A DNA stretch of 64,000 bases. Origin: Dactylorhiza incarnata (taxonomy: Eukaryota > Streptophyta > Magnoliopsida > Asparagales > Orchidaceae). Where the stretch lies: NCBI GenBank assembly GCA_033032865.1, contig JAWHQI010000079.1, positions 8,622,501-8,686,500 of the forward strand. Reading direction: 5' to 3'. The position numbers and the translations under genes were made by a program. Shown one piece after another: positions 13,253 through 64,000 of this stretch. How positions within the stretch are numbered: position 1 is the first letter of the stretch; each line of letters begins with the position of its first letter. The notes under the pieces are model-generated. The model did no database searches. It saw only the letters and a program-made list of their open reading frames with translations, and was not told the origin of the DNA.

Positions 13253-13258
13253 AATTGA

Positions 13259-25009: not shown

Positions 25010-25014
25010 GAGGT
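25010..25014 (+). other. Target site duplication, left copy (GAGGT)
   Basis: GAGGT here and at 37068-37072 flank element S exactly. A 5-bp duplication is normal for copia integrase. Confidence 0.95.
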
Positions 25015-25165
25015 TGTTGGGATCATTGCTCACAATGTCCTAGATTTGGAGAAGTCCATTTCTAAGTCAAAGATATATCTCAGAATGTATTTGATATACT
25101 CTCTAGAATCAATGTGCAGGAGATCAGGTCAGGCAAAATGTTCATGGAATTTATTCAAGTTCAGA

Positions 25166-26129: not shown

Positions 26130-26335
26130 GGATCTGAGTTGTCAGATCTGAGTGTAGGATCTGTCAAGGATCTGAGTTGTAAGATCAGGTGTGATCTGAG
26201 TTGTAGGATTCAGGGGTGAATCTGAGTTGTAAGCCTAGTTATAAAGGCTGAGGTAGGATCTGTGTGATCTGAGATTGTAAGATCCTTTGGTGATCTGAGC
26301 TGTAAGACCTGTTTGTGGTCTGAGATCTGGAGGAG
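26130..26335 (+). repeat. GATCTGAGTTGTAAG repeats in the S leader
   Basis: About ten degenerate copies of GATCTGAGTTGTAAGATC in the transcribed leader downstream of TATA. The units are partly self-complementary around GATC. Confidence 0.85.
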
Positions 26336-26566
26336 TTATAAACCCTATCTAGTACACTACTAGAAGGGTAGAAGGGGGAAAGTGGATTACCCAAGATAAG
26401 GGGAACCACTATAAAAATCTGTGTGTTCTTTTCTGTGGTGTTATTTTTCTTGAAAGCTCTGATCAGATTTATCTAGGTTATGTTCAAGAACTGCAATAAA
26501 TTTAAATAACCTATTCACCCCCCCCCCCTCTAGGTGATTAGCTACCCTTAAATTAAGTCTTTCAAG

Positions 26567-26578
26567 TGGTATCAGAGG
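26567..26578 (+). other. Primer-binding site of S
   Basis: TGGTATCAGAGG, Met-tRNA complementary, two bases after the LTR end. Confidence 0.9.
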
Positions 26579-26645
26579 GAGGTTGTTCAAGAAAAGGTTT
26601 AACAGCCTGAACAAGATCTTCTAAGGATAGATTTCTGAAGTCGTG

Positions 26646-29012: not shown

Positions 29013-32000
29013 ATTCTTTTTGCAGGATTGTCCAAAGACCAATCAGCTTCCAATCTGGTACTTGGACAGTGGGTGCTCTATGCACATGACAGGAACAAAA
29101 AGTCTGCTGAATGATTACTCTCCCATAAGGAATGGACCAAAGGTTATCTTTGGAGGATCTGAAAGAGGTAAAACTAAAGGTTATGGCAATATCTCAAACG
29201 GAATTGTCATCATCACCAATGTTGCTCATGTTGATGGATTGCAACACAATCTCATCAGCATAAGCCAATTATGTGATATTGGGTATGACATTTCATTCCA
29301 CAAGGATAAGTGCTTGATTAAGAAAGAGAATGAGGTAATTCTCTCAGGCACTAGGAGTGGCAATATTTACTGCTTAAATTTCATATGTTCTGATCTAACT
29401 AATTCTATATGCTTAGTAGCAGAAAATAAGATTTCTAGTAGTGTTCAATGGCATAAAAGATTAGCTCACATAAACTATAAGACTATAAATAAGCTCATCT
29501 CAAAATACCTAGTGAGAGGTGGACCTAATTGGAAGTGTGAGCAGGAGGGTCCATGCCATGCTTGTCAAATGGGTAAGCAGACCAAATTTTCATTCAAACC
29601 AATTGCTGAGAAGGATTCCATTAGATGTCTATATCTACTCCACATGGATCTATTTGGACCAATGTCAATCCATAACTTAGGATCTATTTGGACCAATGTC
29701 AATCATACACTTTTGTAATAATTGATGATTATTCCAGATTCACTTGGGTATTCTTCCTCAAACATAAGTCAGACACCTTAGAAATATTTACAAGTTTTGT
29801 AAGGCAAATCACAAATGAAATAGGAAATTATGTAGCCAAAATTAGAAGTGATCATGGGACTGAATTTCAGTCAGGTGCAATGACCAAATTCTGTGAGAAT
29901 CTAGGAATTTCTAAAGAGTTCTCATCTCCTAGAACTCCCCAACAAAATGGGGTTGCTGAGAGAAGAAATAGAACCCTCATTGAAGCTAGCAGGAGTATGC
30001 TGAGTGATTCTTCTCTTCCTGAGTATTTTTGGGCTGAAGCTGTAAATACAGCTTGTCATGTTCAGAATAGGGCTCTTATAAACAAAAGATTGGATAAGAC
30101 TCCATATGAGGTGTTGAAAGGTAGAAAACCTACTTTAGCTTATTTTAAAATATTTGGTAGTAAATGCTTTGTATTAAATAATGGAAAGCATCATCTCACT
30201 AAGTTTGCTGAAAAAGCACATGAGGCAATCTTTGTTGGGTATAGCTCTCAAAGTAGAGCTTATAGAATTTTCAATAAAAAGTCTAATAGGATAGAAGAAT
30301 CTATACATGTTGTATTTGATGAAACCAGCCTTATTCATAAGGATTTGGGAAGTCTATCTAGTTGTGCAGGTTCAACACAGAAATTAAAGGAGCTGAATAT
30401 CAATGAACAACAAAATGAGGATAATGAAGAATCAATTGAGAATACAATTGTATTAAGAGAGGATGAACCTCAAGCAGAAGACAATTATGAAGAACCTACT
30501 GCTGCTGAAGAACCACCTCATCCAGAACCTCTAGAAGAACCTACTCAAACAGATGCACCAAATTCTCAAAGGAGAAATGAAAAGTGGAGGATTGCAACCA
30601 AACATCTTAAGGATCATCCAAAGGAACAGATCATAGGAAATCCAAATGGTGGTGTGCAAACCAGAAGAGGAAACTCAATACATGAGGCCTTGCACCACAG
30701 TTTTATTTCCAAAATAGAACCTAAGAAGTTTGATGAAGCAAATAAAGACTCTTCATGGATATCAGCTATGCAGGAAGAGTTAAATCAATTTGAAAGATGC
30801 AAAGTCTGGATATTGGTCCCAAGACCAAAGAGACATAAAGTCATAGGAACCAAATGGGTATTCAGGAATAAGCTAGATGAGAATGGTGTGATCATCAAAA
30901 ACAAAGCTAGGTTGGTTGCTCAAGGATACAGACAGGAAGAAGGCATAGATTTTGATCAAGTGTTTGCTCCTGTGGCAAGATTGGAGGCAATCAGGTTATT
31001 CTTGGCAATTGCAGCTCACACTGGTTTCATAGTCTATCAAATGGATGTGAAGTCAGCATTTCTTAATGGAACAATATTGGAGGAAGTATATGCTGAACAA
31101 CCCCCAGGTTTTATTGACTCTACTCATCCAAATCATGTCTATCTTCTATTAAAAGCATTGTATGGTCTGAAACAGGCACCTAGAGCCTGGTATGAGACAT
31201 TATCTAGATTTCTTATTGAGAACAAATTCTCAAGAGGAAAGATAGATAAGACATTGTTTCTTAGGATAGTTAAAGGTAACATTATTCTAGTACAAATATA
31301 TGTGGATGATATAATATTTGGCTCTACTGATAATAATCTTTGCAAGAGGTTTGCAAACCTTATGCAAGGAAAATTTGAAATGAGCAGCATGGGTGAGCTT
31401 AAATACTTCTTAGGACTCCAAGTGAAACAGTCTGAGGAAGGAATTTTCATTTCTCAGACCAAGTACACAAAAGAAATTCTTAAGAAGTTTGGAATGGAAA
31501 ATTCCTCTGTCATGAAGACACCAATGGCAGCAAATATGTCACTGGACAAGGATGAAAAAGGGAAACCTATTGATGAAACCTTGTACAGAGGCATCATTGG
31601 ATCATTGCTATACCTAACTGCTAGCAGGCCAGACATTATGTTCTCAACATGTGTGTGTGCTAGATATCAAGTGAACCCTAAAGAATCTCACTACACTGCT
31701 GTCAAAAGAATCCTGAGATATCTGAAGGGAACTCTTAATCTTGGCCTTTGGTATCCTAGAAGCAATGATTTTGAACTAATTGGTTTTTCAGATGCAGACT
31801 TTGCAGGATGCAAGGAGGATAGAAAAAGTACATCTGGGACCTGTCAATTTCTTGGCAAAAGATTAATATCTTGGAGTAGCAGGAAGCAGACCAGTGTGGC
31901 TATTTCTACAGCAGAATCTGAGTACATCTCAGCTGGAAACTGCTGTGCTCAGCTACTATGGATTAAACATCAACTCCAAGACTATAAAGTTCAGCTAAGT

Positions 32001-32243
32001 AAATCTCCTCTATTTTGTGATTCAACTACTGCTATTGCTATAGCTAACAATCCTGTATCTCATAGCAGAACTAAACACATAGAAATAAGATATCACTTCA
32101 TTAGAGAACATGTAGAAAATTAAGACATCTCAATTGAATATGTTCCCACTGACAAACAAGTTGCTGACATATTTACTAAACCCTTGGATGAAACCAAATT
32201 CAATAATTTTAAAATTGAATTAGGTATGTTAAAAATGGATTAA
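29013..32243 (+). pseudogene. Pol polyprotein of S, one frameshift and one stop
   Basis: Protease (WYLDSGCSMHMTG, about 29061), GAG-pre-integrase (WHKRLAHINYK, CHACQMGK), integrase core ([32 protein letters not shown]), integrase C-terminus, RT ([36 protein letters not shown] near 31297) and RNase H ([25 protein letters not shown]). At 29646-29704 a 25-base stretch is copied 34 bases downstream in place of the usual GGKSYTF coding, shifting the frame just before the integrase core. A TAA at 32121 truncates the last 40 codons ([13 protein letters not shown]). Otherwise the coding sequence is intact, as expected for a recent copy. Confidence 0.9.
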
Positions 32244-32687
32244 AGTTATTTTAAATTAAATAAATGAAAATATTGATTAAGCCATATAAGGTGAGTGGAG
32301 AAGCCATCTGGCGTCGACAGACAATTCTTGGCGTCGAGAGAAATTATTTAGCGTCGAGAGAAATTATTTAGCGTCGAGAGAAATTATTTAGCGTCGAGAA
32401 GATATTTGGCGTCGAGAAGACACATGGCGTCGACTGAAGATACATGACGTCAAGCGATCTCAACGCCTATGCGAACATAGCTAGGCCGTCTCGACAGGGT
32501 AAAATTGAACCATTGGATCAATCTTGTCAAACAAGTTCAGCCCGCGGCTTCTCATCTTCTTGAATTAGAACTCCTATAAATAAGGAAGTCACTTCGTTAG
32601 CGTATATGCTGTATTTCTCTAAGTTCGAAATTAGCTGACCTAGAAAATCTCTTCATCAATTCCTTCTCTCCTCAATCATCAAAAATA
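32244..32687 (+). promoter_or_regulatory. Pol-accessory spacer of S with tag array and TATA box
   Basis: GCGTCGAC/G tags occur at 32311, 32331, 32351, 32371, 32391, 32409 and 32427, plus inverted CAACGCC at 32461. The middle ones form a tandem repeat of the 20-mer GCGTCGAGAGAAATTATTTA. CTATAAATAAGG (TATA, 32575-32583) lies about 110 bases before the ATG at 32688. Tag and TATA match the LTR promoter of this element, suggesting a separate promoter for the accessory ORF. Promoter activity is inferred. Confidence 0.65.
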
Positions 32688-35161
32688 ATGCCTCCCAAAA
32701 GCAGTGAGTATCTCTATGAAGGAAGTGAGCTTGTTCGAAATGGATTCCAATCAGCTTCTATGGAGATCAAATCAACAATCGAGTTAATCTACAATGCAGG
32801 ACTGGAGTTCGTATTGTCTGAATCAACTCTCATTTGGAAACGAGAGGTATTAGAGCTATATTCTAACATAGTAATTGACTCCGTAAATTCAAAGATTAAG
32901 ACTAGTGTGAATGGCAAGAAGATTAAGATAACTCCATCTAGACTCGCTAAGGCACTGAAACTGTCTAGGTTAAAAATGTACGAAGAAGAGGAAGAGGTGT
33001 CCTCTGAGCAGATTAGACTAGCACAAATTTGGTGCGGAATTGACACGTCAAGAGAAATCCCTGGAAGTATTCTAAGAAAAGGAATGAATCCGAAAGGCAA
33101 ACTGATAACAGATGTGATAGGAAAGGGATTGTTATGCAAGACTGGATCGCATGACAAAATATCCAGAAAAATGTTTATTCTTCTGACAAGGATCATTCAT
33201 TCTCTAAGAACAGATTGGGGAAGAGTTGTGTTTGACAGAATAGTTGAGTGTATCCAGGTACCCAACATGGGTAGGATACTGTCTCTGTATTTAGTAAAAG
33301 TGTCCCCTGACATTTTGAATAATAAACTTGGATCAAAGATAAATCATATGAAGAAAATGGATATGAGAATGATAGAGAGATGGGACAGAATCTTATCTAA
33401 CCCTCCTCCAGCAGATTCTTCTTCCAAGCAGAAGAAAGCAAAGAAGCAAAAGAAGACTAAGGTTTCTTCAAGTTCCTCTAGTACATCCTCCTCCAAGAGA
33501 AAATCCACATCTTCACCAATTCATGATCCAAATCTTACAACATCTGAAGATGTAGAAAAGAACAATGAAAGGGATAGTTCTCTTGTTACTTCTAAGGATG
33601 CAAATGAAAAAGGGGAAGAAGAAAGAGGAAGTCTTCCTTTATCCCCAACTAGATCTGAAGGGGTTCTGCCAAATGAAAAAGAGACTCAAGATGAGACTCC
33701 TGTTCAGCACGATTCCGAACTAAGCAAAGCAGCAATTGAGGGGGAGTCTCAGGATGAGATCCCTGCTCAGGATAAAATTGATTTGATTGAGGGGGAGTCT
33801 CAGGCTGAGATCCCTGATAAAGTAAATCCTGTCATTGAGGCAATGGAGGTGGAAGCAGAGCTTGAAGCAACAAAGAAATCTGCTGAGAAAGTTATTAAGA
33901 TAGAATCCTCTAGCTCTCATATGAGCCAAAGAAATGATTCTTTTCCAGGGAAGTAAGTAGCAAAGGTGTTGACATGGAAAGGGAAATCCATGTGGACCTT
34001 AGTCCTGTTCTACCTCAGCTGGAGGTGTTACTGAATAATCAAAGGAGAATGTTAGAACAATATATTGAGGAAAATAATGATAAAATGAAAAAGGAAGTGG
34101 ATTTTCAAATAAAGTTGGTTAGATTTGAAGTCAATCATCAGATGTCTGCTTTAAGGAAGGAAATGGTAAAGTTCTTTAAGAGAGCTGGTGCTTCAGTCGA
34201 TTATTCAACTGAACAGCTTAATGCCATCAAAGAAGCATCCAAGACTATTAAAGAATCACAAGCCGGAATTACTAAAACAGTGGATGATGTTCAGACAAAC
34301 CAAGGAATACTGAGTAGCAACATGCAAGTTTTGTATAAAGAACAAGTAGCACAAATTCTCACAGGTATAAATAAAATTGAAGCAAGATTACAACAGCATA
34401 ATGCTGATATGTTGGCTAAAATTGGTGAGAGCTCCACAGTTTTAAAAGACCAAGTAAAAATGCATGTAGACACTTTAGATGATCATCTTCTTAAAGTAAA
34501 GAAAAACATTGACAGTGGAGTTCTTTATTTGGAAGGTCAAGTCAGATTTCAGAAAAATATTATAAGAGATCATATTGTTGAAGAAGTCCTAAAGGGGGAG
34601 AGGTCAATGATTCAAGCTAGTTCTGAACATGCTATGTGGACCTCAAACTCTATAAGAGAAACTCTTGGATATCCTACCATAGACTCTGGGAATGATCAAG
34701 TATCTGGGACAGGGCCAATCTCTCTTACTGAGGTTCAAAAGAAGATTGCTCAAATGTATAGTCCTCAGGATAAAGGTACAAGAGAACATTTTCCTAGTGA
34801 GCAAGAAGAATCAAGCAAAAGAAAGTACAGAGAAGAGGTTCAATCAAGAGCTGATTTTGAACGTTGGTCTCCATCTTCCAGAGAATTGATTCTATCAGCA
34901 TGGGAAGCTGTGAAAAATAATCCAGATCAACGAGAAAAGTGGTATTCTGAAGCTGAGTGGTAAAAGCATAGGGCTCAAGAAGATCTAAAGATCAAATTCA
35001 AGGCTGATAAAATGGCTGGGAAAATCCAGGCAGGAGAATTGGAGCCAATCAGGTACTTCCCAAAGCCATTTGGTTATTTCGAAAGGAGAAAGGAAGTTGC
35101 TGCAGCACTCGCCAAAAGAGCCAAAAGAGGAATTGAATTCAAGGATCCTGGGCATTCTTAG
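32688..35161 (+). pseudogene. Accessory ORF ('env-like' position) of S
   Basis: ATG 32688 opens 422 codons, then a frameshift near 33935-33956 moves the reading to 33974-34963, and a TGG-TAA stop there is followed by open frame to 35161, so the ancestral gene had about 820 codons. Residues 1-235 form a globular domain with FYSNI-like LELYSNIVID, VNGKKIKITPSRLAKAL and GKGLLCKTGSHDKIS. A Ser/Lys cluster (KQKKAKKQKKTK) resembles a nuclear localisation signal. Repeated EGESQ (GAG-GGG-GAG) segments follow, then a long coiled coil (33980-34560). No membrane span is seen. It resembles the proteins of B, D and, more distantly, N. Function unknown. Confidence 0.7.
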
Positions 35162-35515
35162 AACTTTAATCTTTACTGTCTATTTCTGATGAATGTAATT
35201 AATATACTTTTGAACAATCCTGGTGAATTTCTGGTGTGATCTATTTTTCATGATTACATATATATATAAATATATATGCCTGTGATGTGATTATGGTTCT
35301 CTTCATGACATATCTTATTCTGAAATGCTTATGTTTTTATGCTTATATGAGATGTTATGTCTGAGAGAATGTCTGTGGATAGAATGTGTTGGTAATTTGA
35401 TTCTACATAGTATGATACTCCTTCTTTTTGATTATCTATATAGAAATTTGTACACATTTTTTTAAGAGAGATATATCATTGACTGAGGTTATGACTTCTT
35501 CAAATAGGGGGAGAT
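35162..35515 (+). other. 3' spacer and polypurine tract of S
   Basis: AT-rich noncoding DNA with an ATATAT run (35260-35276), ending in AAATAGGGGGAGAT (35502-35515) directly before the 3' LTR. Confidence 0.9.
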
Positions 35516-37067
35516 TGTTGGGATCATTGCTCACAATGTCCTAGATTTGGAGAAGTCCATTTCTAAGTCAAAGATATATCTCAGAATGTATTTGATATAC
35601 TCTCTAGAATCAATGTGCAGGAGATCAGGTCAGGCAAAATGTTCATGGAATTTATTCAAGTTCAGAAGCGTCGAGACATCATACATCGCTCGACGCCTGT
35701 GACCCAGAAGCGTTGACTCATGTCTACTACTCAAATAGACAAGGTCGCCGCTGAAGTTCTGAGACCAAGTTCGGAAGCGTCGAGCCGAGGTGCATTGCTC
35801 GACGCCTTGGAAAGAGAAGTGTCGACTTAACTTCAGTCAGCTCAGCACCAACTAGAAGTTCTGAGTTCAAGTTAGAAAGCGTCGAGCCAAGTTATATTGC
35901 TCGACGCCTTGGAATGAGAAGTGTTGACTTAACTCTTATCTGCCCAGCATCATTCAGAAGTGTAGAGATATGAAGACAGAGTTAAAAGGCGTCGACTGAG
36001 TGATGATTACTCATCGCCTGAGAAGGAGGAGCCGAGAGCTTCAGTCTAAGGAGTATACGTCGAGTGTTGCTCGACGCCTAATTGAGAAAGTGTTGACAAA
36101 GACAATAAGCGCTCAACGCCTCTTCTACAGATAGTCTGAACTGAGGAATTTCTTCTACAGCTGGCTGAGCTTCTGTTTCTGATAAAGACCGTTGAAAACA
36201 TAACGTCATGCTGACGTGGAGGATCGTAACTGTAATTGCAGATGGCGGGCTATAAATAGAAGGCATGACCTAAGGGTTATGTAGCTAAGCATTAAAGCAG
36301 TGAAGAAAAGTTTTAAAAGCTATTATCGTTTTCGAGTAAAAGTTTGAGAAAGATTTCTGAGAAGTCATCTTCCCTTTCAGAACCAATCTGATTTGAAGAA
36401 TTCATTCAGCAATCTGGTGCTGATATCTTTTTCTGAAAGGAGGAGGTCAAGAAGGAAGAATCTGTCTTCCTAAGAAGAAGAACAGTCATCACAGCCTGTC
36501 GAATCAAGAAGATCATTTGCTGCTGCTGTTCTATTGAAGGTTTTTGTCTGATCATTCAGGAAGATCAAGAAGGCTCAACAATTGCAAACCTGAGTCTAAG
36601 TATTTGTTACTTTCTTTCTAAATTTCTGTAGGATCTGAGTTGTCAGATCTGAGTGTAGGATCTGTCAAGGATCTGAGTTGTAAGATCAGGTGTGATCTGA
36701 GTTGTAGGATTCAGGGGTGAATCTGAGTTGTAAGCCTAGTTATAAAGGCTGAGGTAGGATCTGTGTGATCTGAGATTGTAAGATCCTTTGGTGATCTGAG
36801 CTGTAAGACCTGTTTGTGGTCTGAGATCTGGAGGAGTTATAAACCCTATCTAGTACACTACTAGAAGGGTAGAAGGGGGAAAGTGGATTACCCAAGATAA
36901 GGGGAACCACTATAAAAATCTGTGTGTTCTTTTCTGTGGTGTTATTTTTCTTGAAAGCTCTGATCAGATTTATCTAGGTTATGTTCAAGAACTGCAATAA
37001 ATTTAAATAACCTATTCACCCCCCCCCCCCCTCTAGGTGATTAGCTACCCTTAAATTAAGTCTTTCA
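35516..37067 (+). repeat. 3' LTR of S
   Basis: Near-identical to 25015-26564, with about nine substitutions by eye (for example near 35750, 35916, 36033, 36057, 36518 and 36543-36561). The C-tract is longer by two. Confidence 0.95.
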
Positions 37068-37206: not shown

Positions 37207-39005
37207 TGAAAGTGAGGTTAGATCTTAGATTTACTCTAGAGGGGGAGTGAATAGAGTATTAAAAACTTTTTGCTTAATTTTATAGCGGAATTAAAATAGT
37301 GTTACTTATATGTATATGCAGAGTAAGTTATAAAATAAAATAAAAACAAAGCACACAGCACAGCACAGAAAATAATCACAACACAGAGGACACAAGGATT
37401 TTTATAGTAGTTCCCCAATAAACCTGGGTACGTCTACTCTTCTACCACACTTGGTAGGATTCCACTCGGTTTTTGATCAGGTGCCCTATCACCAAGGGGT
37501 TTTTGATCAGGTGTCCACACACCAAGTGAGTTTTCGATCAGGTGCTCTAACCAAACCACAGGTTTTTGTTCATGTGCCCTGTCACCAAGGAGTTACCTTT
37601 TGAAGGGAGTTAAAACCATGTACAAGATGGGATAAAGAGAGGGTTATATGTTCTTCTCTGTAAATATTCTGAGAGAAGACTCTAGTGGAATGTTGTTGTA
37701 AAGCTCCTCTGTCTGGTTGAAAATGTTTGACAGTAGATGGCTGGAGCTTTCTCTTGAATGTACTGATCTTCCTGTAGCTGATGAATCTGAGAGAATAAGT
37801 TCTTCAGATTATTGTTGCTCTTTGAAGATCTGATCTTGGAGCAGAAATACTGAGAGAAGATGTTGATGTTCTCAGTGAATGAAATTGCTGCTTGAGGAAG
37901 ATGAAGACTGAAAACTTTTTCAGTATTTTCCTTTCTTCTTCCTCTTGACTGTATATCCTTCTTCTTTCTTTTTTTTGTATATCTATTTTGTAATATTTGA
38001 TCTGAAAATGTGTAACTTCTTCCTTATTCTTTTGATAATGTATCTCTGATTTGAAATCAAATCATTTAATTAACGAATATAATATTCTGAAAAGATCTTC
38101 TTGGAACTGTATCCATTAATACTTTTCCTTTTCCATGAAAGTGTCCTTTTCCAAGAATATGTCAACGTCCTCTTTACGAAATAGGAGTATAAAATAAAAG
38201 GAAATATAATATCCTTACTTATTTGGAAGAATAGAGCCGTTACTGATGAGAGATATGAGTTCAGAGAATGAAATAAAAATAATCCTTCTGAAATTCTGAA
38301 CTGAAATAAGAATTCATCGATCTGAACAAATTTCATCGAACACAATGTTGAGTTCGTCGATCTCAAGCTGAATCTGGCTGGAAGAGTTGAATTAGTTGAA
38401 CTGAGAAGAACTTTCATCGATCTGAAGGTTGAGTTCGTCGAATTGAACATCTGATACTGATTCGTCGAACACAGACTGGAGTTCGTCGATCTGAAGATTG
38501 AGTTCGTCGAACTTAAGAATTCGTCGACCACTGAGCCGCTGAATAAAATCTTCGATCGCTGAACTGAGCAAATTTGTCGGCCACTGAAACTGGATAATTT
38601 CATCGACCGCTGAGACTGAATAATTTCGTCGACCGCTGAGACTGGATAATTTCGTCGACCGTTGAGACTGGATAATTTTGTCGACCGCTGAACCACTGAG
38701 ACGCTGAGATTGAAGCAAGCCGTTCGTCGAGCGCAGAATATAAGACATTTGTCGAACGCAGAATATAAGTCATTAGTCAAACGCAGAGAGCAATTCGTCG
38801 AACGCAGAGCCTTGCCAAGTTCGTCAAACACAGGAGCATGTCGTTCGTTGAACGCAGGGTAGAGTTCGTCGAACGTAGAAAACTTGTCTTTTCTTAAGTT
38901 CTATCAGCCTAAACTCTTGACCCATAGACTATACATTGGGGTCAATTTGATCCTAGTAAACAGATAGTGATCCTAGCCCAAATCAGTAATAGGGTTGTTC
39001 CAACA
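37207..39005 (-). repeat. Complete LTR of K
   Basis: Plus strand TGAAAGTGAGG...TTCCAACA, about 1.8 kb. The conserved GGGGGAGTGAATAGAG tract lies near the low end. Repeats of GTTTTTGATCAGGTG.CC occur in the leader (37468-37585). Polypurine tract on the high side. Confidence 0.8.
38320..38875 (-). repeat. Tag array, K LTR (TTCGTCGAAC/TCGTCGACCGCTGA type)
   Basis: Over twenty TCGTCGA cores, in two subtypes: GTTCGTCGAAC and TTTCGTCGACCGCTGAGACTGG. The same core occurs in K's second LTR copy and in its spacer (40173-40303). Confidence 0.85.
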
Positions 39006-40322: not shown

Positions 40323-42331
40323 TTAGATTGAATCTCCATCTATCATTCCTAGCTGATTTATAAAGAAGATGTGTTTCTTTTCATCCAATGGCTTGGTGAA
40401 AATATCAGCTCTTTGTAAGTTAGTAGGAATGAATTCTAGGCAAATTTTATTTTTATCCACATTATCTCTGATAAAGTGGTGCCTAATTTCTATGTGTTTA
40501 CTCCTACTATGGAGAACTGGATTTTGTGCTATAGATATTGCACTTGTATTGTCACAAAATATAATTGAATTATTTAAGTTGACACCATAGTCTAAGAGCT
40601 AATTTTGTATCCACAATATCTGTGAGCAGCAACTGCCTGCAGCTATGTATTCAGCTTCAGCTGTTGATGTGGACACAGATGTCTGTTTCTTACAAAACCA
40701 AAACACAAGCCTATCACCAAGAAACTGGCAAGTTCCTGATGTGCTTTTCCTGTCTACTCTACATCCAGCATAATCAGAATCTGAGAATCCAGTTAAATCA
40801 AATTCTGATGTTGTTGGATACCAGAGTCCTAGATTAGGACAACCCTTTATATATCACAAAATTCTTTTTAACAAAATTAGGTGAGATTCTTTGGGGTTAA
40901 CTTGGAACCAAGCACAAATATAGGTAGCAAACATTATACCAGGCCTACTTGCTGTTAAATAAAGTAATGAACCAACAATTACTCTATATACTTTCTGATC
41001 AACAGGTTTCCCTGATTCATCAGTATCAACAATAGCATTTGAGGGCATGGGTGTTTTTATTGTGGAAGCATCAGACATACCAAACCTTTTCACTAATTCC
41101 TTAGCATACTTGGATTGTGATATCAATATGCCATTGGGAGATTGCTTCACTTGAAGACCAAGGAAGTATGATAATTCACCCATACTACTCATTTTATATT
41201 TAGATTGCATTAGATTAGAAAATCTTTTGCATAAATTTGAATCAGTAGAGCCAAAAATAATATCATCTACATATATTTGAACTAGTAAAGTTTGATTTTT
41301 ATGTATCCTAGAAAATAGGGTTTTATCAACAATGCCTCTACAGAAATTGTTCTCCAAAAGAAAATTTGCTAAGGTCTCATACCATGCTCTGGGAGCTTGT
41401 TTGAAACCATAGAGAGCTTTATTAAGCTAAAATACATAGGAGGAGCGAGTTGAAGAGATGAAACCTGGTGGTTGTTCCACATATACTTCTTCTTTGATGT
41501 CTCCATTCAAAAATGCACTCTTCACATCCATCTGATATACCTTGAATTTCTTGAATGCAGCAAAGGCCAGAAAAATCCTGATAGCTTCAAGTCTTCCAAC
41601 AGGAGCAAAGGTCTGATCATAGTCAATTCCTTCTTCCTGTGAATATCCTTGGGCTACCAATCTTGCTTTGTTTCTCACTATGTTGCCTTGATCATATAGC
41701 TTGTTCCTGAAGACCCATTTGGTGCCAATAACTAGATGGCCTTTTGGTCTTCGAACCAAATCCCATACCTTGTTCCTTTCAAATTGATTGAGCTCCTCTT
41801 GCATTGCAAGAATCCAATTTGGATCTTGTTCTGCAACTTTTATGGATTGAGGTTCAATCTGGGATAGCAAATAAGTGTGCATCAGATTTTGGTGTAGTTA
41901 ATGACGTGTTTGAACACCTGCTGAAATATCACCAATGACTTGTGATATTGGATGATCTCTAACTGTGATGTGATCAACAGTTGGAGTTGGTTTAGCAATA
42001 GTATCCACTTGGGGAATTTGATCAGCTGTCATTTGATTTGAATTGTCAGCAAGATCAAGATTTTCCTCTTCTTCATTGTCTTCAAGATTTTTAATTGATG
42101 GAAGTAGTGATTCTTCTTTTTGTAGATCTAGTCCATTTAGCTCTTTACATAGAGTTGGTACCTGCAAGGTATTTTTGGTAGAGGTGGTGTTCCTCTCCTC
42201 AATTAACATGTTAGTCTCATCAAAAGATACATGCATGGACTCTTCTATCTTAAGAGTAGATTTATTGTAAACTCTATATGCCTTACTAGAAAGAGAATAT
42301 CAAAAAAATATGCCTTCAGCAGCTTTTGCTG
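40323..42331 (-). pseudogene. Pol C-terminal half of copia element K
   Basis: Starts at the deletion point inside the integrase C-terminus (YSLSSKAYRVYNKS; SMHVSFDETN), then the linker (41898-42236), RT (41427-41882 and 40854-41357: [39 protein letters not shown]) and RNase H to a stop at 40323 (ending GMIDGDSI). Breaks occur at about 41890, 41426 and 40853. It is closer to S than to H in its YVDD region (GSTDSN versus GATNEE). Confidence 0.8.
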
Positions 42332-43421
42332 TAGGAAGATGAAGACTGAAAAGCTTTTTCTGTATTTCTCTTTCTTCTTCCTCTTGACTTTATATCCTTC
42401 TTCTTTCTTTTTTCTGTATATCTATTTTATAATATTTGATCTGATACTGTGTAACTTCTTCCTTATTCTTTTGATAATGTATCTCTGATTTGAAATCAAA
42501 TCCTTTAATTAAGGAATATAATATTCTGAAAAGATCTTCTTGGAACTGTATCCATTAATACTTTTCCTTTTCCATGAAAGTGTCCTTTTCCAAGAATATA
42601 TCAACGGCCTCTTTACAAAATAGGAGTATAAAATAAAAGGAAATATAATATCCTTACTTATCTGGAAGAATAGAGCCGTTGCTGATGAGAGATCTGAGTT
42701 CAGAGAATGAAATATAAATAATCCTTCTGAAATTCTGAACTGAAATAAGAATTCGTCGATCTGAACAAATTTCGTCGAACACAATGTTGAGTTCGTCGAT
42801 CTCAAGCTGAATCTGGCTGGAAGAGTTGAATTAGTTGAACTGAGAAGAACTTTTGTCGATCTGAAGGTTGAGTTCATCAAACTGAACATCTGATACTGAT
42901 TCGTCGAACACAGACTGGAGTTCGTCGATCTGAAGATTGAGTTCGTCGAACTTAAAAATTCGTCAACCGCTGAGCCGCTGAATAAAATCGTCGACCGCTG
43001 AACTGAGCAAATTCGTCGACCGCTAAAACTGGATAATTTCGTCGACCGCTCCGCTGAGACTGGATAATTTCGTCGACCGCTGAGACTGAATAATTTCATC
43101 GATCGATGAACCGCTGAGACGCTGAGATTGAAGCAAGACGTTCGTCGAGCGCAGAATGTAAGCCGTTCGTCGAATGCAGAATGTAAGCCAATCGTTGAAC
43201 GCAGAGAGCAATTCGTCGAACGCAGAGCCTTGCCAAGTTCGTCGAACACAGGAGCATGTTGTTAGTCGAAAGCAGGATAGAGTTCGTCGATCGCAGAAAA
43301 CTTGTCTTTTCTTGAGTTCTATCAGCCTAAACTCTTGACCCATAGACTATACATTGGGGTCAACTTGATCCTAGTAAACAGATAGTGATCCTAGCCCAAA
43401 TCAGTAATAGGGTTGTTCCAA
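42332..43421 (-). repeat. Truncated second LTR of K
   Basis: Matches 37893-39005, including the TCGTCGA array (42752-43290). The R-U5 side is deleted. It is fused to pol sequence around a short shared GGAAGATGAAGACTGAAAA. Confidence 0.8.
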
Positions 43422-45240: not shown

Positions 45241-45995
45241 AAAGAATTCAATGTAGTGTAGGTAAACTATTTATGAGATTTAAAATAAATCCTTATACGA
45301 CACAATCATGCAATAAGATTTAAAACACATGTAGATTAACGAAAAAGGTGTATGTGAGAAAATCATTATCAAAGATAAAAACTTTACTCATACTTAGAGG
45401 CATGTAAAAACATATCTACACATGTAATCTACAAGCAAATTCTTTGCACATTTTAAGATATTATTCAAGGCATGATAAAACAAAAATAATGTTTTTAAGA
45501 AACTTGAAGGTTTAAATTAAACATCATAAATAATCTTTAAGCAATATATATAATCATCCTTGAAATAAACATTTAAGCATATATTAATTTTTTGTTTTTA
45601 ATTTTTGAAAGTAAATAACAACAACAAAAAATGATTTATTTTTTAAAATAAATCAAAATACTGCAATAAAATAATACCTAAAATTTTCGATAAGGCAAAA
45701 ATAAAATTGGAGCATAAAGGCAGGCGTTAGCTTCTTAACGCCGAGACAGGTTACTAAATTTTGACTTTTTGAAAAATCTTTTTCATGATTCATTTGTATT
45801 ATAAAGAGACCTTACGGTTGAAATTTCAGACATTATGTAGTTTATTTGAAGGTTCTTTTGGTATATTTTTGTTTTTCTATATTTTTATTGATTTTGAATT
45901 TTTTTTAAAAGAAATGCAAACAAATGTAACAAAGTATATTAGATAATTTTGATAGCTCTTTATAAGGGTTAAAGTGACATTTCTAAGACACCTAA
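45241..45995 (-). other. Spacer of M
   Basis: AT-rich, no ORF. It contains one M-type tag pair (GGCGTTAGCTTCTTAACGCC, 45724-45743) just beyond the pol stop, in the same relative place as the H, K and N spacer tags. Confidence 0.7.
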
Positions 45996-52610: not shown

Positions 52611-54202
52611 TGATGAGTCCCAATTATATACACTTTTATAGACTCATCTGGGTCGATTTTATAGTCTTTGCACCACACTTTAGGCATATTTTCGTACATA
52701 TTTACATTCATATTTGTTATTCCCTGTTAGGTGCATTCTTAGGCCGTTTTGGTGTGCAATTGCACGCTTTGCTGTTGGGGGCAAGCACTTGGTGCTCCCC
52801 AATCTATTTTCTGTGTTTATTAGGTGCTGGAGGTATTCCCAGCTGGGTTGCATTGTATGCAGGTGACCTGATCATCATGTTTTCCCCAGAATTCATGTCT
52901 GTGCATATCGCACGGTCGTGCGTTTCCTTGACGCACAGTCGGTTACGGTCGTGCGTTTATGTCTGGGCAGAAAACAGAGCGTCGGAGTCTACTCGTGCGT
53001 TTTCACGCATGGGCAGTTTGCCCGTGCGTGAGTAAAATGCACGGTCGACCTATGTATTCTTGATTTCAGAGCATCGGATTTTGCCCGTGCATTTGTACGC
53101 ACGGGCGGTGTTGATCGTGCGTGAGCAATTCGCACGGGCGGCGCAGCGTCTTCCCCAATTCATGTTTTATCATTTAATAACGCACGGTCTGCGCACAGTC
53201 GTGCGTTGGACCGTGCGTGACCATTTTCTGACAGAATTTCTATTTAAGCCGCAGGTCTTGCCCTACTCCGATCGATCTTTTTTCCCGCTCCCAGAGCTCC
53301 AGTTCTGCGCCCTTTTCGCCGTCCAACGCCGCCCACCTTCAGGAGGTGCTCCGGGACTATTCTTCATGCCTATCTTGAGCCTGGAGATCATCTCGGCCTC
53401 CTCCTTCATCCTATAGCTTCAAAGGAAGATTTAGCCGCCATTGCCATCAAACAAGGGGAAGTTTGTAACCTTTACCGGATCATGAGACGATGAAGACGGG
53501 CTCATTGGAGAGTCGTGACAGCTCTCTCTACCCCGAACATAGTTGAGGACCGAGCTTGGACGCGGATTGACAACCCGGCATTTCCAACCGTGAATCTACA
53601 ACGAGCCTTCGGATTCGGTCGATTTCTTGCCTTGTTCTTCTCTTATTGATGTGTATATGTTGTAGATCTCTAAATATTATGATGAAGTGGCACATAAACT
53701 TGTTTGTATTTCTATATTTCATGTCTATGTGAAATGCTTTTGTGGTTTATGTGATTTGAGGAGCGCCCCATTCCATCCTCCATCCCACCTTCGCGTTCGT
53801 TTGCCGCACTAGCAATTGCTAGTGGCGTGCTTGTCGAAGAGGTTCTTGCGACCCTCATTCCATTTGCCTACTCGTCTATCCTCCCTTACGAAGTAGCGCG
53901 CTCAAGTCCTACATAGTTTTCATCCCCCCTGGCGAAGCATTGCATAGCGGCATTGCATAGGAGTAGTTATTGTTGCTTTTCATTATTTTCCACAAACCAA
54001 ATCACCCACTTTCGCACCCATCCGACTAAAGGACATCAATTTCAAGTCCTGCCTCAATAGTAAACTCCACCTTACTGTGTTCCTTTGAGATCGATACTTG
54101 GGGATTCACTCTCATTTTATATTACTTGAACGATCGGTACACTGCCGTTTCGTGCCGCAGTCTTACTACCGCCTATAGCGGTGTGCTAAGATTTACGCAT
54201 CA
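52611..54202 (+). repeat. 5' LTR of P
   Basis: TGATGAGTCC...TTTACGCATCA, with TGATG/CATCA inverted ends, followed by the PBS. Tag array 52909-53221; TATA box CTATTTAAG at 53240-53248. From about 52840 to 53690 it matches 57112-57968. Confidence 0.8.
52909..53221 (+). repeat. Tag array, P LTR (CGCACGGTCGTGCG type)
   Basis: Around ten copies of GCACGGTCGTGCG, GCACGGGCGG and their inverses, ending 18 bases before the TATA box. Duplicated at 57189-57500 in the second LTR copy. Confidence 0.85.
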
Positions 54203-57111: not shown

Positions 57112-57970
57112 CTTTGGCAATGCTGGGTTGCTTTGTATGCAGGTGACCTGATCGTCCTGTTTTCCCGAGAATTCATGTCTTTGCATAACGCACGGTCGTG
57201 CATTTCCTTGACGCACGGTCGATTGCGGTCGTGCGTTTGTGTCTGGGCAGAAAACAGAGCGTCGGAGTCTACTCGTGCGTTTTCACACACGGGCGGTTTG
57301 CCCGTGCATGAGTAAAACGCACGGTCGACCTGTGTATTCTTGATTTCAGAGCGTCGGATTTTGCCCGTACGTTTGTACGCACGGGCGGTGCTGATCGTGC
57401 GTGAGCAATTCGCACGGGCGGCGCTGCATCTTCCCCAAGTCAAGTTTTATCATTTAATAATGCACGGTCTGCGCACGGTCGTGCGTTGGACCGTGCGTGA
57501 CCATTTTCTGACCGAATTTCTATTTAAGCCGCAGGTCTTGCCCTATTCTGATCGATCGTTTTTCCCGCTCCCATAGCTCCAGTTCTGCGCGCTTTTCGTC
57601 GTCCATCGCCGCCCACCTTCAGGAGGTGCTCCGGGACAATTCTTCACGCCTATCTTGAGCCCGGAGATCATCACGGCCTCCTCCTTCATCCTATAGCTTC
57701 AAAGGAAGATTTAGCCGCCATTGCCATCAAACAAGGGGAAGTTTGCAACCTTTACCGGATCGTGAGACGAAGAAGACGGGCTTATTGGAGAGTCATGACA
57801 GCTCTCTCTACCTCGGACGTAGTTGCGGACCGAGCTTGGACGCGGATTGACAACCCGGCGTTTCCAACCGTGAATCTACAACGAGCCTTCGGATTCGGTC
57901 GATTTCTTGCCTTGTTCTTCTCTTATTGATGTGTATATGCTGTAGATCTCTAAATATTATGATGAAGTAG
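57112..57970 (+). repeat. Partial 3' LTR of P
   Basis: Matches 52845-53690 of the 5' LTR at high identity, including tags and TATA (CTATTTAAG, about 57519). It is cut at 57970 (GATGAAGTAG) by N's LTR; the rest should lie beyond N. Confidence 0.8.
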
Positions 57971-59245
57971 TGTTGGATCGTGTGACGCCCTTAGAGGGGG
58001 GGTGAATAAGGGTGTGTTTAAAAATTAAATTTTTACTTAGTAATTTTTTAAAGAGATTTTACTTTACTAAAAAGTTACTTATAAATAATTTTAAACCAAT
58101 GTAATTTTTGTATTTAACAAAACACAAATTTCTAAGATAAAGATTAAAGCAGACAAATTTGCAATTAGTGAAAAGAGCATAATTATATTAATCATGAAAT
58201 TTGCATACAATAAAAATGATCTTAACAATGCTTAAGATCAAGGCACAATTATGATAATAAAAAATTCAATAATTTTGGTTTACCAATCCTTCACCCAAGG
58301 ATCGGAAGGCTATCACTTGTCTCTCCCAAGACCAAGCCCAAGCCTATCCTCTAGATCTTCCCAAGATCTAGACGTAGCACACAAGGCCACGATTTCCCAC
58401 CAAGCCACGCAAGGACTTGGACGCTCCGCACAAGGAAGCGATTTTCCCTTAAGCCGCGCAAGGACTTAGACGCCGCACGCAAGACGACGATTTCTCTACC
58501 AATTCAAAATGAAAAATATGTGAATGAAAATACAATATGAAAAGAACAACTCCCTAGAAAATCAGATCTCTGAACGGATTGTTGAAGCCTCGAGATGATT
58601 GATGATGTAGAAGCGCGCCCGATCTCGTCTTCAATCTTCAATCCTTCTTTGCACAAATGGGAGTTGAGGAGGTTCTGGATCTCTCTGGTTCATATGCACT
58701 CAGGAAAGGACTGGAATTCTCAAAAGCTTGGAATGCACGAACCAAAGGAACCAATTTATAGAAATTCACTGTCGCCTGGGCGACAGTGACTGTCGGAATT
58801 TTCCGACAGTGCTAAACTGCCACTGGAGTGTCGTCGTGGGTGGAGTCGTGGGCAGTTGGTGTAACCGTCGAGTTGTCGCCTGGGCGACATCGATGTCGGA
58901 TTTCCGACAGTGCAAAACTGCCGGTCGTGGGTGGAGACGTGGGCAGTTGTTGTAACCGCCGAGCTGTCGCCTGGGCGACATCGCTGTCGGAATTCCGACA
59001 GCGCAAAACTGTCTTTCGTCGATCTGCCGTGGAGGGAAGTAGTTGTAACTTCTCTGCTGTCGCCTGGGCGACAGTGGCTGTCGGAATTTTCTGACAGTGA
59101 AATTTTCCCACATTCAATTTTAGCTCCAGCAGCAATGTGAACATCTCATACCTGTTATCTGCACACCATTAATGAAAATAGAATCAAATACAAAAGGGAC
59201 TTTGTTATTATCAAACCGGAGGAGTGCGAAATGCATGCTCCAACA
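57971..59245 (-). repeat. 3' LTR of N
   Basis: Plus TGTTGGATCGTGTGACGCCC...GCTCCAACA, 1275 bp, with GAGGGGGGGTGAATAAGGG near the low end as in A. Minus TATA box TATAAAT at 58754-58760. Polypurine tract on the high side. Confidence 0.9.
58767..59102 (-). repeat. Tag array, N LTR (GTCGCCTGGGCGAC and TCGGAATTCCGA)
   Basis: Four composite units at about 58767, 58873, 58962 and 59057. Each pairs CTGTCGCCTGGGCGACAG with CTGTCGGAATTCCGACAG-like palindromes. The last palindrome ends six bases from the minus TATA box (58754-58760). Confidence 0.9.
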
Positions 59246-60580
59246 ATCTCCCCCTTTTGATAATAACAAATCCATATAAAAAGAAATCACGTCTATTTAG
59301 ATTGTTGATTTTAACCTTTGGTGTGCACACAAAATTAACATGATATACATTTCTTGAAAATAAATGATCTACCTTTAGATGAAAGCTCCCCCTAAATGAA
59401 AGCTCCCCCTACATATATGCTCCCCCTAAATATATGCTCCCCCTAAATATATGATGTATTGTGTAGGTGGAATATTTAGGTGTAATAGATTTGTGATTGT
59501 TCTTTTTATACTTTAAATTCTCCCCCTTTTGGTATTAGCAAAAATGAATATTAGATAAAAGAGTAGCTTTTAAGGGAAAGGTAATAGAAAATAGAAATGA
59601 AGAGTAAGCGGAAGCAATTTGTTGGTAATGATTGAAGTCCATGAAATAATAGGAATATGCCATAGTTTGAATAAGCCCATGAAGTGACGGTATAGCCATA
59701 TGAATTAATGAAAGAAAATAACTTAAACATGAGAAAGGTCATTTGAAAGTATCATAGAAAGACACAATAGTGTATAGATATATGGAATATTTTCGGTCCA
59801 ATTCTCATGAGATGAATGTTTATATAACATAATGATGTGTACATGTGATACTTAAATCAAACATATGAAGTTATTTAATTTACATGATCATTAAAATGTA
59901 GAATATAATAAAAGCATATAAAGGCAACTTTGACTTTGAAGATATAGCACAAGATGAATAGAAAACCATGTTTCTTTTGCACAAGACACTTTACAATTCT
60001 TTCCAAGGTGCTTAACCTCACAATGCTCATTAAGACTTATCAGGAGGGTAAGTAGTGCTTGGTGGAGTATCCTTGTCTTTATTTTTATTTTTTTTGATCA
60101 CAGACGTTGTGATATCTTAATTGTGATATATTGATATATTTTTTTTTAAATGACCAAGGATCTCCGAATTCACTTGAATCGCAAAAGATGGTGTATATTT
60201 TGTTGTGCTAACAAATCAATGTTGAAAGTTGTATTTAAGAAATGCTATTTTATTATGTGAAAGCAAATATGATCCATGTATTAAATAAAAAGACATACGT
60301 ATTGATCAAAAGAAGTGAACGTGATAGTTCATTATGATAGATAAACAATTTCTCATACTTAGAGTCATGCGAAAACAATTTCCAATGGTCTAAACAACTA
60401 AGTAGAAGTGTCAATACGATGGTAGCTTGGAAATGAAATCATATAAACATGTAAGTCATTTTTTTTTAAATAAATAGCACATGGTTTGTCATCAAGTCAT
60501 GAGGTGAAGCATTACTAATGACATATAACTATTGTAGATCATCAAAGGGACCTAAAATTGGAGTTTTGTTAAAATGGGAG
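59246..60580 (-). other. Spacer of N: polypurine tracts and conserved block
   Basis: The polypurine tract (minus AAAAGGGGGAGAT, 59246-59258) borders the LTR. Five GCTCCCCCTA-type units (59385-59450) are tandem PPT-like copies. 59978-60077 is strongly conserved with H 19410-19506. No ORF. Confidence 0.75.
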
Positions 60581-60637
60581 CTGTCGGAAATTTCCGACAG
60601 TCACTGTCGCCTGGGCGACAGTGAAAAATATAAATAG
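60581..60637 (+). promoter_or_regulatory. Putative promoter of the N antisense ORF
   Basis: A perfect 20-bp palindrome CTGTCGGAAATTTCCGACAG (60581-60600), then a GTCGCCTGGGCGAC palindrome (60601-60624), then TATAAATAG at 60629-60637, four bases on. In the LTR the same palindrome is five bases from TATAAAT. Tag and spacing are thus duplicated in opposite orientation. Activity is inferred. Confidence 0.7.
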
Positions 60638-61272
60638 GGCTGGGGACCGAGTCAAACCCTATTGTGCATCATTTCCTGGAGTTAAAAACGAGAGGAAGGC
60701 TGTCGGAAGTCGGCGACATCCCTAGATCTAAGATATGGGTTTTTGATTTTGGTGTTTTTAACTCAAAAAAATTTTTAGGGATTTGTGATTTTGATAGTAG
60801 AGAAGAAGGAAAATGTAGTTTTCATGTTGATTTTTGATGAATGGTGTAGGTTTTGAAATTTTTTTGATTTGAAAAATGTAGATCTAGTTTAAAACAAGTG
60901 GATCTTGGTGGATCTTTGCTAAAATTTTTATCTTTGTTAAATTTCTTTTTGATTTGGTGATGAAGGTTTCCATTTGTTCATTTTCTAAAGGATTTTTGTA
61001 GATCTAGTTTAGAGAAGAAGGTGGAAGATGATGAATAGTAAGGGATTTGTAGAATATGTTGATTTAAAAAAAATATTTTTTTTAAAAAAAAAAACTTGAT
61101 GTTGAAATAACATTTATTTTGAGTAGATCTGGAAGTATATGTAAAAATTTTGAGAGAAAATCACTTGGAGGGCTGTCGGAAATTTCCGACAGTCACTGTC
61201 GCCTGGGAGACAGTGTTCCAGTGCACAATGTGATACCATGTTTAATCAAAATTTTTTGTATGTTATTGCAGA
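60638..61272 (+). other. Leader of the N antisense ORF
   Basis: T-rich sequence with another tag pair (61173-61215) and a splice-acceptor-like TATGTTATTGCAG ending one base before the ATG, so a 5'-UTR intron is possible. Donor not identified. Confidence 0.5.
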
Positions 61273-62388
61273 ATGGCTTCCAGTTCCAAAGCTCGAAAGA
61301 GTACTTCGGAAGATGCATATACTTCATATCAAGTTTTTCCGGGGGTGGAGAAGGCTATTGTTGGAATAGCGAAGTATGTGGAATTTGAGTCGCCAAAGCA
61401 CGATCATATCTATGATCGGCTTGCGAACGCAGGTATAATTTCAATAATCACACCAGAGGGGTTTTCTTCCTTTTTCATTCGTGAATTTTATAACCATTTG
61501 GAAGACCCAAATTTCACTGAATTGGATGGCGGAGTGAGATCAAAGATCCAAGGTCAACATGTGGAAATAACACATGTTGATCTTCGAGAGGAATTTGGAC
61601 TAGTGATGAGTGAGAATATGCCTGATATAGTGGAGAATTATCGAAAGGATAGAGATTGGACCCTTGTAAACATGAGTTTACATGGGAATCAAAAGAAGAC
61701 TCTTACCACCGAAGTTACGTCACTTACTCCGGATGCTTTCTTAGTCCAAGATATATTAAGGAATTCAGTGATGTTAAAGAGTGGAGATACAAGAAGCATT
61801 ACGGCTCAGTTGACCCTCTTTACATACTATATTATGGAGGATGAGCTTTTTGATGTGGCGGACTTCATACTCGCCCAGATTAGGTATGCGTATAGATTAA
61901 AGCATCCAAGATGGATGAAGGTTCATACGCTGCCAATGGGGGCGGTAATACAGCGTGTACTCTACAAGAAGTATGGATGGATAGTGCAAGGTGCTTATTT
62001 GGATGATTGTTACCCGGAAATATATTATACGGGTTCAATGAAGGTGAAGAAGCCGCAGAGAAAAGCTCATCCGGGGATTGAGATTAGAGAGCCGACCATT
62101 TCTAGGGCAGGATCACTACGAGAGTCCATTGATGATTTGCGTGATTCATTAGAGGATCACAAGAGGGAAGTGAAGAAGGACCGTAGTCGAATGCAGAAAT
62201 TTATGAAGTTTCTCGTCAAGGGTCTGAAGTTAAAGCCAACTCCGGAGGAAGAGGCCGAATGGCAAGTTCCGGACGAAGAACCGCCACGCCAATCAGTGAG
62301 GCGGACTCGCCGTGGCAAAGCTGTGAGACGAGGACCTCCAGAAGATTGTCCAGAGAGAAGCGGGGCTGGTTATGAAGATTCAGAGTAG
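61273..62388 (+). CDS. Antisense accessory protein of N, 371 aa
   Basis: Intact ORF antisense to its retrotransposon, tail-to-tail with pol (about 300 bases from pol's stop). Residues 20-250 look globular: FSSFFIREFYNHLEDPNF, VRSKIQGQHVEITHVDLREEF, SLTPDAFLVQDILRNSVM, YYIMEDELFDVADFILAQI. This layout is like the 'putative plant transposon protein' domain found beside plant retrotransposons and resembles the N-terminal halves of the S and B accessory proteins. Residues 275-320 form a charged helix; the C-terminus is Arg-rich (RRTRRGKAVRRG) and could bind nucleic acid or act as a nuclear signal. It has its own TATA box and tags. Antisense genes at this position are known (maize Grande1), but the function is unknown. 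Confidence 0.8.
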   Translation: MASSSKARKSTSEDAYTSYQVFPGVEKAIVGIAKYVEFESPKHDHIYDRLANAGIISIITPEGFSSFFIREFYNHLEDPNFTELDGGVRSKIQGQHVEITHVDLREEFGLVMSENMPDIVENYRKDRDWTLVNMSLHGNQKKTLTTEVTSLTPDAFLVQDILRNSVMLKSGDTRSITAQLTLFTYYIMEDELFDVADFILAQIRYAYRLKHPRWMKVHTLPMGAVIQRVLYKKYGWIVQGAYLDDCYPEIYYTGSMKVKKPQRKAHPGIEIREPTISRAGSLRESIDDLRDSLEDHKREVKKDRSRMQKFMKFLVKGLKLKPTPEEEAEWQVPDEEPPRQSVRRTRRGKAVRRGPPEDCPERSGAGYEDSE

Positions 62389-62686
62389 TTTAATGTTGCT
62401 GCTGCTGCTGGGCGATGTCGGAAAATTCCGACATCCACTGTCGCCTGGGCGACAGTGAACTTCTTTAAATTTCTGCTTTTGTTTAATGAACTTGATCCTT
62501 AAGTTGTTTCTACTGTTTTTTTTTATTTGAACAATATTGATGTAGTATGAATGATGTTGAATTTTTGTTAAGTCTTTTGAAATTTAATGTTTTGATTTTT
62601 AAGATTTTGGCTTTTTCTTTGTACATTGTTTATGTTTTGTGATAATTTTTTTTTTAAAATTTTATAGGCTTTAAATAGTGATATAT
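62389..62686 (-). other. Tag pair between N antisense ORF and pol
   Basis: 62410-62457 carries GATGTCGGAAAATTCCGACATC and a GTCGCCTGGGCGAC palindrome (each core under 20 bases), closing the antisense gene on its 3' side. The rest is T-rich. Confidence 0.75.
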
Positions 62687-64000
62687 TCATTGTGAAATGT
62701 CGAGAATTCCCAATTCTAGCCTAAGCATAGAAAAACGGGAATCCGGTAACGGCTTAGTGAATATATCCGCTAGTTGATTTTCCGTGCCTATAAAGTTGTT
62801 TTTTATATTACCCTTCTTAATATGATCCCTTATAAAATGATGTCGGACATCTATATGCTTAGATCTAGAATGTAATACGGGATTGTTAGTTAAGTCTATA
62901 GCACTTTTATTGTCACACTTTAATTCTACACTACTTGGTTGTATGCCAAAATCTTCTAATGTTTGTGACATCCAAAGAGCTTGGGCACAACAACTACCTA
63001 GTGCAATATATTCGGCCTCAGTAGTTGAGAGGGCAACAGAATTCTGTTTCCTACTCGACCATGAAATAAGTGAAGGGCCGATAAAGTGACAAGTGCCACT
63101 AGTGCTTTTCCTATCTAAGGAACATCCCGCATAATCCGAATCCGAAAAACCATGTAAAGTAAAAGAATCATTATGAGGATACCATAAACCTAATTTTGAT
63201 GTGCCTATGAGATATCTAAAGATACGTTTCACCGCTTTTAAATGTGACTCTTTAGGATTAGCTTGAAATCTAGCACATAAACAAACGGCAAACATAATAT
63301 CAGGTCTAGATGCGGTTAAATACAATAACATCCCTATCATACTTCTATAAAGGGTTTGTTCAATTGAAACACCACTTTCATCTTTTCCTAATTTTAGTGA
63401 AGTACTCATAGGAGTGTTTGCATGCTTAAGGTTTTCAAATCCAAATCTTTTTAACATATCATGAATATATTTGGTTTGACATATAAAAATTCCATCATGT
63501 TTTTGTGTAATTTGAAAACCTAGAAAATATGAAAGTTCTACAACCATACTCATTTCAAATTCATTTTTCATAATTTGAACTACTTCATTACACAACTCTT
63601 CATTAGTGGCTCCAAAAATAATATCATCAACATAAATTTGTAAAATTACTAAATCATGATTAATTTGCTTAATGAAGAGTGTAGAATCAGCACTTCCAAT
63701 TTTATAATCGTGCTTTAACAAATATTGAGTTAATCGATCATACCAAGCACGAGGCGCTTGTTTTAATCCATAAAGCGTTTTATCTAATTTATAAACATAA
63801 TTTGGATATTTCTCATTTATAAAGCCAGGGGGTTGTTCTACATAAACTTCTTCTTTTATATACCCGTTTAAAAATGCGGTTTTGACATCCATTTGATATA
63901 ATTTAAATCTTTTAAAACAAGCAAATGCAAGAAATATTCTAACCGCTTCTAATCTTGCTACGGGTGCAAAAGTTTCATCAAAATCTACCCCTTCAATTTG
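62687..64000 (-). CDS. Pol of N, RT-RNase H end (partial)
   Basis: Open reading frame from the window edge ([20 protein letters not shown]) to a stop at 62687 (LGILDISQ). It contains the RT half with [23 protein letters not shown] and catalytic [14 protein letters not shown] (about 63618-63645), and RNase H with [43 protein letters not shown] and [13 protein letters not shown]. No stop or frameshift in 437 codons, whereas H and M are broken here. It makes cDNA from the element's RNA. Protease and integrase would lie beyond 64000. Confidence 0.9.

Follow-up and report, generated by a model that had tools for sequence, protein, structure and literature searches.

Element N, a Sirevirus-type Ty1/copia retrotransposon in the genome of Dactylorhiza incarnata, appears to encode an accessory gene that runs antisense to pol and is preceded by a copy of the promoter arrangement of its own long terminal repeat (LTR). 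At both sites the TATA box is preceded by the same two palindromes at nearly the same spacing. This observation supports the explanation that we consider probable: a backwards accessory gene with its own RNA polymerase II promoter, composed of an LTR-type palindrome cassette and a TATA box and switched together with the LTR. The sequence features of N provide good support for the antisense gene and its promoter; from these features we infer that the gene is transcribed and co-regulated with the LTR.

An antisense accessory gene in element N

The window, by which we mean the entire 64,000-nucleotide stretch of this 3.27-Gb genome that was analyzed, contains N on its minus strand. Judged by its sequence, N is a Sirevirus-type member of Ty1/copia: its pol gives an RVT_2 match (E 7.7e-45), and it displays several Sirevirus traits, including multiple PPT-like CTCCCCC repeats on the linker side of the 3' LTR (59249–59262, 59396–59440, and 59519–59530), a polyC-rich integrase signal near the LTR 3' end (TTAGAGGGGGGGTGAATA at 57991, plus strand), and palindromic CGG-CCG repeats upstream of the LTR TATA box. 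The RT-RNaseH end of pol (62687–64000, minus strand) continues beyond the window edge. The 3' LTR (57971–59246, minus strand) was delimited using the PPT-like repeats, the poly-G/C signal, and the alignments of 20 other fetched copies, all of which start at 57965–57971. A 94% identical repeat pair lies nearby, at 52842–53688 and 57122–57968; its right copy stops 3 bases from the end of the N LTR, so N may have landed within another repeat or at its border.

Between pol and the 3' LTR, the plus strand carries an open reading frame (ORF) of 371 amino acids (61273–62388; from the window ORF list). It weakly matches PF20167 Transposase_32 (30.1 bits, E 5.4e-07), under the curated cut-off of 45. 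Twenty further copies of N were found with the promoter as query, and two that had lost the ORF region (L011 and L017) were excluded. Among the remaining 18, the ORF was free of gaps, insertions, and stops in 11, had one stop in four, and had an indel in three. With the window copy included (19 sequences), pN/pS was 0.26 for the antisense ORF and 0.20 for RT-RNaseH; the linker gave 1.00 and the intron described below 1.41. The other five frames of the ORF gave 1.10, 1.13, 1.07, 1.27, and 0.39, the last being an opposite-strand frame that has its third positions in common with the ORF frame. A genome search with the ORF protein returned 9148 first-look candidates, 110 of which were scored (96%–100% identity); no internal stop was present in 94 of these 110, a figure biased towards intact copies, as the 110 are the best-scoring of the 9148. 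By these measures, the antisense ORF behaves as a real gene under protein-level constraint.

A leader intron of 539 nt is predicted upstream of the ORF (60733–61271, plus strand) from splice sites in other copies. A canonical donor and a CAG acceptor occur in all 18 of these, and the window copy is without a canonical donor. Since the genomic RNA is of the other strand, an intron in the orientation of the ORF could pass through retrotransposition intact. Together, the recurrence of the promoter arrangement in other copies, the constraint on the ORF, and the conserved leader splice sites suggest that N likely contains a genuine antisense transcription unit.

When the ORF protein was searched against a protein database, none of 1244 candidates reached E 0.001 or better, and an IMG/VR scan revealed no relative. 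An AlphaFold2 model based on an alignment of four window sequences was unusable (mean pLDDT 34.6); this very-low-confidence model includes a long helix at residues 283–317, and the sequence has a basic tail. Candidates from a genome search with PF20167 (150 of 8771 scored) were rejected. Palindromes were listed for 30 of these loci and ORFs were read in three, two of which encode an integrase-like ORF on the strand of the PF20167 ORF and so looked like other, sense elements; one locus from this search (L049) was merely adjoined by an N-type LTR piece.

Palindrome cassettes at two TATA boxes

Two palindromes, palindrome 1 (TGTCGG..CCGACA) and palindrome 2 (TGTCGCCTGGGCGACA), together form what we term a cassette. 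Cassette 1 (60581–60624, plus strand) contains TCGGAAATTTCCGA at 60584–60597 and GTCGCCTGGGCGAC at 60606–60619; its full palindrome 2 spans 60601–60624 and ends 4 bases before the TATA box of the antisense ORF, TATAAATAG (60629–60637, plus strand). On the minus strand, the LTR cassette closest to the LTR TATA box (58766–58810) has a palindrome at 58766–58789, which is followed after 5 bases by TATAAAT (58760–58754); no column between 58752 and 58765 varies in 19 copies. Both spacings had been pointed out in an earlier note on this DNA, which we confirm and find to have understated the pattern. N carries seven cassettes, four in the 3' LTR and three in the linker around the antisense ORF, and five of them (three LTR, two linker) are additional to those already noted. 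The other LTR cassettes lie at 58874–58909, 58965–59003, and 59057–59098 (minus strand). Cassette 2 (61173–61216, plus strand) falls within the predicted leader intron just 5' of the ATG, with one palindrome 2 arm imperfect in the window copy. Cassette 3 (62414–62457, plus strand) directly follows the ORF stop codon; it falls within a 69-nt stretch that matches the LTR core promoter in inverted orientation (84%) and has a degenerate TATA. With at most one mismatch, the two palindromes match 4 and 7 times in the window, vs. 0.00 and 0.01 expected from shuffles.

In all seven cassettes, the order from palindrome 1 to palindrome 2 follows the direction of the gene served. These cassettes look like duplicates of one another rather than independent events, and we therefore rejected treating them as seven independent proofs of polarity. 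Two of the three linker cassettes are upstream of the antisense ORF in the gene's own direction, and the third is behind the gene. The two-base center of palindrome 2 reads TG on the plus strand in every cassette; since the center keeps one strand sense throughout, a linker cassette is not a plain inversion of an LTR cassette. The 5' leader exon contains, at 60701–60718, a hybrid palindrome with the left arm of palindrome 1 and the right arm of palindrome 2, which is found in most copies whose fetched stretch covers that site.

Because the first 20 copies had been found using the promoter itself, a second sample was drawn by the ORF protein. Taking every fourth of 79 of the 110 listed places gave 20 copies, none overlapping with the first 20, from each of which 251 bases were fetched. 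TATAAA[TA]AGGG is present in 21 of 21 sequences when the window is included, strict palindrome 2 in 19, and strict palindrome 1 in 17 (20, 18, and 16 of the 20 copies without the window), and the distance from palindrome 2 to the TATA box is constant in all 19 sequences with a strict palindrome 2. Diversity in this sample is 4.9% across the cassette and TATA box, vs. 19.0% over the 36 bases that precede this block and 22% over the 10 that follow it. Low values also occur further upstream (3.7% at 60510–60544) and in the leader (6.8%), indicating that the cassette is one conserved block among several.

Nine of the 20 ORF-chosen copies, picked from diverged subfamilies, were also compared one by one with the window copy. 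In six, the cassette had changed less than the sequence on either side of it (p 0.00038 to 0.0022), although four of these six are near-identical and the flanks were picked with the alignment already in view; the remaining three showed no significant difference (p 0.057, 0.24, and 0.74). Several of the nine come from a single subfamily; in most subfamilies compared, the flanks next to the cassette have diverged. Among the recent, promoter-selected copies, with cassette 1 excluded, variability at non-CpG sites is slightly lower within palindromes (1.7% vs. 2.8%; permutation p 0.046); the same test on the LTR alone gave p 0.31. CpG sites within palindromes are no less variable in these copies (4.8% vs. 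3.8% in other noncoding CpGs). By eye from the alignment, the palindrome 2 nearest TATA and a TATAAA box are present in all 11 further LTRs from the 20 copies. Cassettes 2 and 3 recur in each of the four other copies fetched there, one cassette 3 having a changed arm.

Proposed mechanism and alternatives

In the explanation we favor, the accessory gene of N, reversed relative to pol, would have an internal RNA polymerase II promoter in which the family-specific palindrome cassette and the TATA box are arranged as in the LTR promoter. Transcription would start approximately 25–35 bases past the TATA box, near 60655–60665, after which the 539-nt leader intron would be spliced out and the 371-amino-acid protein made. 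Palindromic sites would suit a dimeric DNA-binding protein. We suggest that one such factor, encoded either by the host or by the element, recognizes the cassettes in both places and may thereby switch the genomic RNA and the accessory mRNA together. One regulator common to both promoters is the simplest reading of the shared palindromes. Counting against this explanation are the locations of cassette 3 behind the gene and of cassette 2 in the intron, neither of which a plain promoter needs.

A more specific possibility, which we consider unlikely, is that the antisense gene is the family's own regulator. Its product would be a nuclear dimer that binds the cassettes and either activates the LTR promoter and its own gene or protects both from silencing; that gene would carry binding sites in its promoter, intron, and 3' end. 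The long helix in the very-low-confidence model and the basic tail suggest that the ORF protein may be this factor, in the role that VANC plays for VANDAL21 of Arabidopsis, where the cited portions of the reports describe a proven motif-binding protein with an anti-silencing function (PMC5735166, PMC10398659). VANDALs, as presented there, resemble N in that short motifs specific to the family occur in their noncoding sequence, among other places in introns and upstream of the genes that the element carries; they differ in being DNA transposons, and the motifs of N are palindromes. The comparison is one of motif layout alone. Were this reading true, the palindromes of a Sirevirus family and its accessory gene would evolve together as target and factor, in a retrotransposon analog of VANC, which would explain why both differ between families.

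The linker cassettes might instead be by-products, pieces of the LTR core promoter that reached the linker in inverted orientation when reverse transcription switched templates, and that now hitch-hike there with no regulatory role. Such an origin would fit cassette 3, with its 69-nt, 84% match to the LTR core promoter and degenerate TATA, and the duplicate character of the seven cassettes. We nonetheless regard it as unlikely: the ORF-chosen copies retain the TATA box and its spacing from palindrome 2 while the adjoining bases differ, the ORF is constrained and needs a promoter, and the center of palindrome 2 is unfit for plain inversion. The protein constraint and the TATA spacing would also be left unexplained if the palindromes and convergent transcripts mainly yielded double-stranded or hairpin RNA, and hence small RNAs that silence or limit N, with the shared sequence acting as a silencing handle rather than an activator site. 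This role is compatible with the promoter explanation and has several points in its favor: N holds convergent promoters inside one element, small RNAs are reported to map preferentially to the palindrome-rich parts of maize Sirevirus LTRs (PMC5311732), and double-stranded RNA from antisense accessory transcripts is proposed in a portion of PMC7264820; as the main function of the shared sequence we judge it distinctly unlikely.

Very improbable, in our assessment, is that the cassettes serve as recombination points for the exchange of accessory modules. The gene lies between direct cassette copies (61173 and 62414), and similarity to N ends at 61171, just before cassette 2, in L017, which is one of 20 fetched copies. 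L017 is a single case, however, similarity in the other broken copy (L011) ends at 61069, outside a cassette, and the spacing to TATA would be left unexplained. L017 retains the antisense promoter and, past window position 61171, continues with gag-pol-like ORFs on the other strand.

Known systems and other elements of the window

The interpretation in the earlier note is supported in part: the arrangement common to both promoters exists and is found again in further copies, and it is less novel than that note supposed. In the portions cited here, Bousios et al. 2010 (PMC2829016) describe family-specific CGG-CCG palindromes (RM boxes) clustered upstream of TATA in Sirevirus LTRs. In elements with an env-like gene such repeats also occur in the linker, where 77 of 79 copies precede the gene; four elements without such a gene have none there. 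The same portions cite the idea of an internal promoter to 2002 and state that one had not been conclusively identified by 2010. N likewise has LTR palindromes upstream of TATA that are repeated in the linker upstream of an accessory gene. Compared with those portions, it differs in that its gene is antisense to pol, whereas env-like genes share the direction of pol; that its repeats lie at the inverted 5' end, beside a TATA box; and that it pairs in a second palindrome type and has one cassette behind the gene. N can be viewed as a natural inversion test of the internal-promoter idea. In sense elements the repeats stand on the opposite side of the gene; in N, the repeats and TATA box are found at the reversed gene's own 5' end, and this placement separates the view that the repeats belong to the linker from the view that they belong to the gene. 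With many ORF copies in one genome, direct tests are possible of where transcription starts, of co-expression with the LTR, and of protein binding.

Antisense accessory ORFs (aORF-3R) are also known, from maize Grande (gene23), rice RIRE2, and Retand (PMC7264820; Retand, PMC11963269), and a promoter upstream of Grande gene23 is reported. The N gene resembles these in being an antisense ORF between pol and the 3' LTR that is kept in many copies. Grande, RIRE2, and Retand are other elements, however, and the cited passages do not describe the sharing of an LTR promoter motif. In N, the promoter of the antisense gene is a putative one, recognized by its sequence. N is of SIRE type and yet has its ORF in antisense, unlike the SIRE trait recorded in the cited part of Neumann et al. 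2019 (PMC6317226), a forward ORF in 74% of elements. In sum, it was already known that palindromic repeats occur both in Sirevirus LTRs and ahead of env-like genes, and that other retrotransposons have antisense accessory genes. What we did not find in the open-licence literature searched is the combination of the two, in which the repeats accompany the reversed gene and lie next to a TATA box at its 5' end. Literature searches limited to open-licence papers likewise returned no description of an antisense Sirevirus gene that carries palindromes of the LTR type. Palindromes of maize Sirevirus LTRs are reportedly the subject of a 2016 Genome Research paper.

The window also contains a complete sense-oriented Sirevirus-type element, S (25009–37067; LTRs 99.2% identical). 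Its accessory ORF (32688–33956) likewise weakly matches PF20167 and is preceded by a TATA box, TATAAATA at 32575, behind tandem GGCGTCGA units, and the GGCGTCGA word recurs, on either strand, in the S LTR before a TATAAATA. In this arrangement, S is a sense counterpart of N. LTR and linker have 34 CpG 9-mers in common in N (controls, 0–2) and 10 in S (controls, 0–1), those of S being mostly one tandem GGCGTCGA unit. Local alignment of LTR to linker scored 59 for N, vs. a shuffle maximum of 28, and 24 for S, below the shuffle maximum of 33. Two further elements, K and M, are without a linker ORF of at least 150 codons in the window ORF list, and neither rises above controls: LTR and linker share five CpG 9-mers in K, whose LTR shares seven with M pol and four with N pol, and one in M, vs. 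10 with its own pol. The off-diagonal alignment of the M LTR to the S linker scored 28 (shuffle maximum, 27). A link between LTR motifs and an accessory promoter thus appears strong in N and suggestive in S and is not established in K and M; with N clear, S partial, and K and M not above controls, this window does not establish a general rule.

Soon after the end of pol, M and K have weak LTR-like palindrome remnants (20195–20240 and 45720–45750), about where N has cassette 3; these occur despite the lack of a long linker ORF and are not above controls. Two other repeat pairs in the window resemble LTR pairs of other retrotransposons: 7045–8267 with 13252–14475 (96%) and 37889–39003 with 42327–43421 (92%).
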